64,000 nt of DNA from Sphingobium xanthum (GTDB taxonomy: Bacteria > Pseudomonadota > Alphaproteobacteria > Sphingomonadales > Sphingomonadaceae), in NCBI RefSeq assembly GCF_019737615.1, contig NZ_JAHKKS010000001.1:496001-560000 (forward strand), written 5' to 3'. This document shows positions 1,101 to 59,500 of the stretch, piece by piece. Within the stretch, counting starts at the first letter, position 1. Every line of letters begins with the position of its first letter. Made by a program: the position numbers and the translations under genes. A model generated the notes under the pieces. It did no database searches. It was not told the DNA's origin and worked only from the letters and a program-made list of their open reading frames with translations.

Positions 1101-2126
1101 ATGGCCGCATCCGATCCTTCGCTCCCGCCGCTGCATGGCTGGCTGATCCTCGACAAGCCGGTGGGGCTCGGCTCGACGCAGGCGGTCAGCGCCGTCAAGC
1201 GCGCGCTGCGCGAGGCGGGCTATGGCAAGGCCAAGGTCGGTCATGGCGGCACGCTCGATCCGCTTGCGCAGGGCGTGCTCCCGATCGCGATCGGCGAGGC
1301 GACCAAGCTGGCCGGGCGGATGCTCGACAGCGACAAGATTTACGACTTCACCATCCGCTTCGGCGCGCAGACCGATACGCTGGACCTGGAAGGGGCGGTG
1401 ATCGCGTCCTCCGATGTGCGGCCGACGCTTGCGGATATCGAGGCCGTTCTGCCGCGCTTCACCGGGCCGATCGAGCAGGCGCCACCGGCATACAGCGCGA
1501 TCCTGATCGACGGCGTGCGCGCCTATGACCGTGCGCGGGCGGGCGAGGACGTGGAGATGAAGTTGCGGGCGGTGACGATATATGCGCTCTCCCTTCAATC
1601 CTCCCCGGCACGGGGAGGGGGACCAGCGAAGCTGGTGGAGGGGTGGAGCGGAGCCGCTCCGTCGCCTACCCCCTCCACCACCGGCGATGCCGGCGGTCCC
1701 CCTCCCCGTACCGGGGAGGATCTGGAGGAGGTCACCCTGACCGCCCATGTCTCCAAGGGCACCTATATCCGCAGCCTCGCGCGCGACGTCGCGTTGGCGC
1801 TCGGGACGGTCGGTCATGTGTCCATGCTGCGCCGTGCGAAGGCCGGTCCGTTCACGCTGAAACAGGCGATTTCTCTGGACATTCTGAACGATGCTGCTAA
1901 GGCGCGCGCCATTGCGCAGCATATGCTGCCATTGACGGCGGGGCTGGACGACATCCCGGCTCTCCCCGTCACCTCCGAACAAGCCATGGCGCTGAAACAG
2001 GGCCGGACGCTTGCAGGGGATCCTCGCACGCAGGGTCTGATGCTGGCGACGCAGGGCGATGTGCCCGTCGCGCTGGTGGAGGCTTTGGGGCCGGACATCC
2101 GGGTCGTGCGGGGCTTCAATCTTTAG
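1101..2126 (+). CDS. truB: tRNA pseudouridine(55) synthase TruB
   Basis: TruB isomerises U55 of the tRNA T-loop to pseudouridine. The 341-residue protein shows [10 protein letters not shown] near the start, the catalytic-aspartate motif [12 protein letters not shown] (Asp53) and [12 protein letters not shown] in the second half. The C-terminal part (from about residue 285) resembles the TruB PUA-like tail. The protein is longer than usual because about 42 residues (roughly 166-207, rich in Pro, Gly and Ser) interrupt the fold between the strands ending IYALSL and starting [12 protein letters not shown]. That insert is exactly the translation of a palindromic repeat. It lies just upstream of rpsO, matching the common truB-rpsO-pnp order. 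Confidence 0.95.
1598..1721. repeat. Palindromic repeat, family B, inserted in truB
   Basis: This is an approximately 124-base imperfect inverted repeat lying inside the truB reading frame. The left arm begins atcctccccggcacggggag and the right arm ends with the complementary ccccgtaccggggaggat. Each arm carries its own small hairpin (ctccccg...cggggag) and a second motif of the type ggtggaggggt/accccctccacc. The same architecture recurs between genes at 59,367-59,500. The insert keeps the truB frame open on both sides and adds about 42 residues. Confidence 0.9.
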
Positions 2127-59366: not shown

Positions 59367-59500
59367 AATCCTCCCCAAGCTCGTCTTGGGGAGGGGGACC
59401 GTCGAAGGCGGTGGAGGGGAAATGGCGCAACGCTGGATTTTCCCCTCCACCACCGGCTTCGCCGGAGGTCCCCCTCCCCGAGCAATCTCGGGGAGGAATT
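59367..59500. repeat. Palindromic repeat, family B (intergenic copy)
   Basis: This roughly 134-base imperfect palindrome has arms starting aatcctccccaagctcgtct and ending ggggaggaatt. Each arm contains its own hairpin, and the inner motif ggtggagggg / cccctccacc matches the copy inside truB. It fills the gap between two cotranscribed genes, so it may also modulate mRNA decay. Confidence 0.9.

Follow-up and report, generated by a model that had tools for sequence, protein, structure and literature searches.

How a tRNA-modifying enzyme comes to carry a palindromic repeat within its reading frame is the question raised by truB in the 64,000-nucleotide stretch analyzed here (the window; C1:496001-560000 of the 4.06-Mb genome G000). 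The gene encodes a protein of 341 aa, and the initial annotation described an imperfect palindrome that interrupts it while keeping the frame. This was confirmed: the element has closely matching inverted arms (Table 1), its predicted RNA fold of -111.6 kcal/mol (z = -8.96) was equaled by none of 200 shuffles, and the frame is open throughout. Asp53, which we take to be the catalytic residue of TruB, was correctly described as intact. The element starts with ATCCTCCCC at its 5' end; it carries no CGTC tag and, by inspection, no GTAG tag at its ends.

Table 1. Positions of truB, its palindromic element and further family-A copies (window numbering unless a locus or contig is named).
Feature	Position	Strand	Basis
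truB, tRNA pseudouridine-55 synthase with in-frame insert	1101..2126	+	TIGR00431 221 bits vs cut-off 151; Pfam TruB_N, TruB_C_2
Asp53 codon in GGTLDP, intact	1257..1259	+	invariant in TruB alignment (13 sequences)
Variable TruB loop segment, 54 aa	1581..1742	+	loop census; uninserted relatives mostly 16-31 aa
Palindromic repeat, CCTCCCC-GGGGGACC family (family A, frame 1), branched fold	1598..1721	+	inverted arms, RNA fold, dispersed copies
Left arm of truB element	1598..1624	+	27 nt, 96% complementary to right arm
Right arm of truB element	1695..1721	+	27 nt, 96% complementary to left arm
Intergenic sister copy, family A	59369..59497		sequence, arms, BLAST match at C1:555388-555480
Family-A palindrome in frame in glycyl-tRNA synthetase beta	L050:1056-1211 = G000:C22:63955-64110		translated frame, protein identified by reading
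Family-A palindrome in frame in valyl-tRNA synthetase	L048:1064-1172 = G000:C3:143363-143471	-	translated frame, protein identified by reading

By sequence, the insert site lies between residues 158 and 166 of E. coli TruB, whose structure (1k8w) was the top solved-structure match to an AlphaFold model of the window's protein. In this model (mean pLDDT 83.6), the insert is flanked by two predicted strands at residues 156-165 and 210-217; residues 169-204 score below 50 and the remainder is well predicted. The gain in length is smaller than the approximately 42 residues first proposed: compared with the three nearest relatives, the loop has about 26-30 extra residues (54 vs 24-28 aa), since some native loop codons are absent at the position of the element. 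The suggestion that the element was selected for a frame-neutral length is not supported. It measures 124 bp, which is not a multiple of three, and the matched spans at 20 other family-A places in G000 range from 22 to 156 nt (17 of the 20 within 91-156). These varying spans, together with the use of two truB reading frames by family A, led us to reject frame-neutral length as a selected trait, and the pattern fits selection that acts on the gene, not on how long the element is.

Family A is dispersed through G000, with 41 BLAST matches on the two strands together, where 40 of the 60 first-look candidates were scored. Among the matches scored, the nearest other copy is 84% identical to the truB insert. 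The sister copy that had been reported near 59,367 is intergenic and was placed at nearly the same position (Table 1); another copy lies upstream of the window at G000:C1:490112-490263, immediately 5' of the ylxR start. Dispersal was established by genome search for two families, namely family A (in G000, G092, and G093) and a CGTC repeat from the truB gene of G079, for which 54 matches were counted in G079 on the two strands together.

We then asked how relatives fill the same loop. TruB was found in all 94 genomes of the window's genus (mostly Sphingobium), and loci were taken from these, from 80 named GTDB genomes, and from 90 of the 109 genomes of a family-wide sample, with duplicates removed. 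Among the resulting 221 distinct loops, 114 hold a palindromic insert, 84 hold none, and 23 share a conserved non-palindromic loop (GRPDPYDP). The named GTDB genomes were ranked by how similar they are to a query that carries an insert, which biases their insertion rate upward; in the genus, 42 of 89 classified genomes were inserted and 47 were not, and in the family-wide sample 27 of 84 were inserted. Across the class, 114 genomes were sampled, one per family apart from the window's. A TruB match was obtained in 110 of them, and none of the 108 outside the window's family was split at the site, with aligned spans extending at most 13 residues beyond the query. The only two split genomes, G000 and G103, both belong to the window's family. 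Of 29 class loci fetched, 20 were parsed, giving 19 loops of 16-22 aa and the 52-aa loop of G103.

These counts depend on how loops were located and labeled. Loops were found by searching open frames, such that broken frames could be missed, and the final family labels were assigned by hand since a pattern scan proved too permissive for families A and B. Five genus genomes were left out (94 reduced to 89): one contig ends within the insert (G023), one frame is broken (G040), two short loops were missed by the pattern (G061, G050), and one gene is partial (G068). In the family-wide sample (109 genomes, 108 with a match), L296, L316, L351, L354, and L358 were unparsed, G027 was a duplicate, and 17 unsplit genomes were not fetched; L316 holds a CGTC insert by eye and the L354 insert is cut by a contig end, both outside the counts, as is L216 of the named set. 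Draft contigs break or hold N within the truB insert in G023 (L102), G220 (L354), and G071 (L017, L066), so occupancy may be undercounted in draft assemblies. Thirteen of the 47 genus loops labeled as empty match a family signature at a relaxed threshold, a figure that carries no chance estimate. Self-complementarity of 100 of the 114 inserts exceeded the best of 342 shuffles (median 49 vs 14); the other 14 did not exceed this maximum and a few are weak, e.g., L228 and L306. The frame of one genus locus, G040 (L104), is broken inside the insert, which may be an error in this draft of 200 contigs with 7% contamination; the open-frame-based search of the 94 genus genomes revealed no other broken frames within inserts.

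The inserts are of many kinds. By hand labels, the 114 comprise family A in frame 1 (32) and frame 2 (21), B (17), H (7), C, E, and F (6 each), D (5), D2 and I (3 each), G (1), and seven others. Family A thus occurs in two reading frames at this site, of the SSPARGGGP type in 32 loops and of the ILPGTGRGT type in 21. About ten DNA signatures occur in the loop; three have CGTC (families C, D, and D2 start with it) and two have a common core, so at least seven kinds were counted as unrelated. In one 100-aa loop (L349), two repeat families apparently lie side by side. The non-palindromic loop, GRPDPYDPxAPLELAD, is conserved at 23 loci (L312-L352) of an Erythrobacter-like group, as we name it by inference, and further palindromes occur at its start (e.g., L320, L324, L329, L343, L350).

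Since the same loop is filled repeatedly, in frame, by different families, truB appears to be a place where parasitic-looking DNA lands recurrently, and not a gene with one odd insertion. The initial annotation understated the case, in that other palindromes fill the same place in many relatives. The nearest relatives lack the window's form of the insert. The annotation had named a shared insert with a conserved peptide in close relatives as the mark of an ancient functional loop; this outcome was not found genus-wide, where relatives have mostly other palindromes or none at this position, although small clades do share a single insert (e.g., L186, L191, L199, L202, L204, L208). It is very improbable that the insert is an old functional loop palindromic by chance, or a sequencing artifact: the Erythrobacter-like group does show that a conserved loop can occupy this place, but inserts of two families match dispersed repeats, inserts differ between sister genomes, and they are present in genomes with few contigs.

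On these grounds we favor, with somewhat better than even confidence, the reading that, in the Sphingomonadaceae, the tip of one TruB beta-hairpin serves as a coding landing pad that non-autonomous palindromic repeats reach time and again. The repeats dispersed in sphingomonad genomes would keep arriving at the TruB loop; copies that leave truB open would be retained as a probably disordered loop, and the remaining copies would be purged because truB is needed. Inserts may later shrink by in-frame deletion between arms or internal repeats, or another palindrome may replace them. The loop would thus be exposed and tolerant, and it is probably preferred. The data show that different palindromes reached this loop repeatedly and were later shortened or exchanged; we infer the mechanism of movement and the source of each copy, and take the insert to be presumably translated and neutral for the enzyme; the repeats themselves would be non-autonomous mobile DNA.

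To gauge whether the loop is special, we compared it with its surroundings. An inverted-repeat scan of 142 loci (2.71 Mb) detected a strong palindrome in the truB of 56 and 161 intervals elsewhere, genes and spacers unsorted. The same scan found no palindromes in 976 kb of neighboring genes, i.e., infB (315 kb), pnp (304 kb, complete in 36 of the 142 loci), nusA (193 kb, complete in 49), ylxR (75 kb), rbfA (51 kb), and rpsO (38 kb). With a single detector, density in the genus was 3.58 per kb of the 63-nt truB loop vs 0.21 per kb of operon spacer (approximately 17-fold), and across the 142 loci 6.26 vs 0.29 per kb (approximately 22-fold); this detector sees inserts in 21 of 93 genus loci vs 42 of 89 by hand classification. 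A cruder comparison gave 10.1 vs 0.33-0.42 per kb while mixing hand labels with detectors, and the single-detector figures are preferred. A library BLAST placed 87 of 166 intervals in truB, none in the six neighbor genes, and 79 elsewhere; since its library consisted of truB inserts, this search is biased, and the inverted-repeat scan therefore serves as the main control. A coding-homology test on neighborhood repeats was dropped as a control when 75 non-truB intervals passed it; the ones inspected were explained by shadow frames of conserved genes or by intergenic copies close by. Further in-frame palindromes may exist in other genes near truB.

These densities bear on the simplest alternative, in which repeats land at random and the TruB and GlyS segments (the latter described below) survive since they accept any length, with in-frame-only losses prolonging residence. 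We regard tolerance alone as rather unlikely, though it deserves serious consideration. The loop segments vary from 15 to 100 aa across loci, the insert is predicted by AlphaFold to be disordered, and genomes with a truB insert have somewhat more repeats nearby (0.89 vs 0.59 per 10 kb in those without, p = 0.038), all of which speaks for it. Against it, the loop is many-fold denser than spacers in both the genus and the 142-locus comparison, even though spacers need no frame, and infB holds no palindrome in all the sequence scanned. Loss rates or retention may differ between loop and spacer, so density is evidence for preference and no proof of targeting; the pad is probably one that repeats favor, beyond simply tolerating them.

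A second pad came to light in GlyS. Among 20 fetched family-A places elsewhere in G000, at least two are in frame in genes, those for ValS and the GlyS beta subunit (Table 1); ten candidate frames were translated, and the two proteins were identified by reading rather than by family search. Using queries of the flanks joined without the insert, GlyS proved to be split in 32 of the 61 genus genomes (across contigs in two cases) and ValS in 4 of 61. The GlyS segment measures 16-55 aa in 20 fetched split loci vs 7 aa in 23 of 28 parsed unsplit loci, and 15 of the 20 split segments have self-complementarity of at least 30, with several repeat families distinguishable by eye. Occupancy of TruB and GlyS is weakly associated (both 17, TruB only 8, GlyS only 13, neither 19; p = 0.061, n = 57). 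In G092, in which truB is empty, none of 22 distinct family-A places was judged to lie within a gene (18 had no open frame of 60 + 80 aa on the two sides and four were judged by eye). We tentatively extend the landing-pad reading, at less than even confidence, to coding safe harbors: in essential tRNA enzymes (TruB and GlyS, ValS less frequently), specific short segments may be actively targeted by, or selected for occupation by, several unrelated repeat families, such that selfish repeats would continually rewrite, shrink, and swap protein segments.

The state of the loop changes often. On a species tree of 85 genus genomes built from infB, rbfA, ylxR, and rpsO, insert state requires at least 33 changes (least possible 10; shuffled mean 38.1), with 22 changes when only inserted rows are considered and 23 for presence vs absence. 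One insertion that is young by the tree, that of family A in G093, has empty sisters (G092, G075) with flanks 96-100% identical. Measured against the closest other copies within G093, its identity is 74% for the whole insert and up to 91% for the arms; the 74% value and the 84% of the window's insert count against recent copying from within the genome. Approximately twelve native codons are missing at the G093 insert, which weakens the case for simple insertion, and no target-site duplication was seen by eye in the empty and filled truB pairs, where native codons are missing. L069 has a full family-B insert, and L091 and L109 resemble derivatives of it that were shortened by nested internal deletions preserving the frame; such forms point to insert turnover.

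Some of the scatter may have another origin. L067 and L068 share an insert that is 90.9% identical, while closer relatives of L068 carry B, a pattern that suggests some exchange of truB segments between species and means that some tree changes are other than new insertions. The middle of truB in L149 and L150 is divergent near the loop, apparently foreign, and without an insert, suggesting that recombination replaced the loop region. It is improbable, however, that interspecies exchange of truB alleles by recombination accounts for most of the scatter following few original insertions. The insert common to L067 and L068 across B-bearing relatives and the foreign-looking segments of L149 and L150 are what exchange would leave, but several separate arrivals are required to account for at least seven unrelated families and for A in two frames, and the G093 flanks match the empty sisters on both sides.

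We also considered whether the palindromes are kept for a function, acting either in the RNA, as a hairpin of the rbfA-truB-rpsO-pnp region, or in the protein, as a loop altering TruB or GlyS. Differing sequences with strong folding in common occupy one place, the window's predicted fold is very stable, and both main pads are in enzymes acting on tRNA. In four groups of 4-7 sequences each, dN/dS was 0.39-0.59 for the insert vs 0.02-0.19 upstream and 0.26-0.28 downstream; as judged from these ratios, the insert evolves under relaxed constraint. The downstream value is not very low, which we count against the landing-pad reading. Covariation among seven B inserts gave little signal, with both sides changed in 2 of 55 pairs. 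The relaxed dN/dS, the scant covariation, the persistence of deletion forms, and the 47 of 89 genus genomes without an insert all argue against a retained function, which we consider doubtful.

The TruB hairpin offers a replicated natural experiment, in which one protein loop holds many in-frame sequences and related species present empty, filled, and shrunken forms. The system permits direct tests of short-repeat movement, of loops as safe harbors for selfish DNA, and of the gain and loss of protein segments. It also calls for caution in annotation and gene trees in this family, since TruB and GlyS lengths vary through inserts.

Several known systems resemble this one in part. REPIN/RAYT systems are palindromic dispersed repeats, as is family A; unlike them, G000 has no Y1-type transposase flanked by family A. 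A search with the sole mover profile used, Y1_Tnp (PF01797), gave a single hit in G000 with no family A within 2.8 kb by eye, and with no link between the two, RAYT or IS200 was rejected as the mover. A closer parallel is the CGTC REP superfamily described in 2013, in a paper of which Di Nocera is presumably an author. The loop families C, D, and D2 begin with CGTC as do these REPs, whereas the window's family A lacks the tag. That paper places REPs in tRNA synthetases and, for E. litoralis, S. alaskensis, and S. maltophilia, in tRNA pseudouridine synthase B, calling the effect unclear, and its passages on the truB REPs report no common site or recurrence (PMC3733652). Multi-family recurrent filling of one loop, a turnover series, and a GlyS pad were not found in our searches of open PMC papers, consulted mostly as listings.

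Elements that enter genes in frame, including RPE and the MITEs Correia/NEMIS, ERIC, and RU elements, are covered in a review (PMC2229807). Like bacterial MITEs, which are short, have inverted ends, and sometimes lie in frame within genes, the window's element has terminal inverted repeats; no target duplication was seen by eye, and the PF01797 search gave no parent transposase. The RPE of Rickettsia are palindromic repeats of 105-146 bp found in frame in conserved proteins (Ogata et al., 2000, 2002, as cited in PMC2229807 and PMC3733652), and PMC3733652 also cites an RPE-1 in the truB of R. conorii. Palindromes within genes, TruB among them, are thus already known as RPE and REP from the passages cited. 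The comparison with RPE made in the initial annotation is apt for the way of working, in that a palindromic repeat lies in frame in a conserved ORF with TruB homology on both sides; the likeness is one of description. The lineage is another one, and in the present case roughly half of the classified genus genomes have the one loop filled, with many families converging on it.
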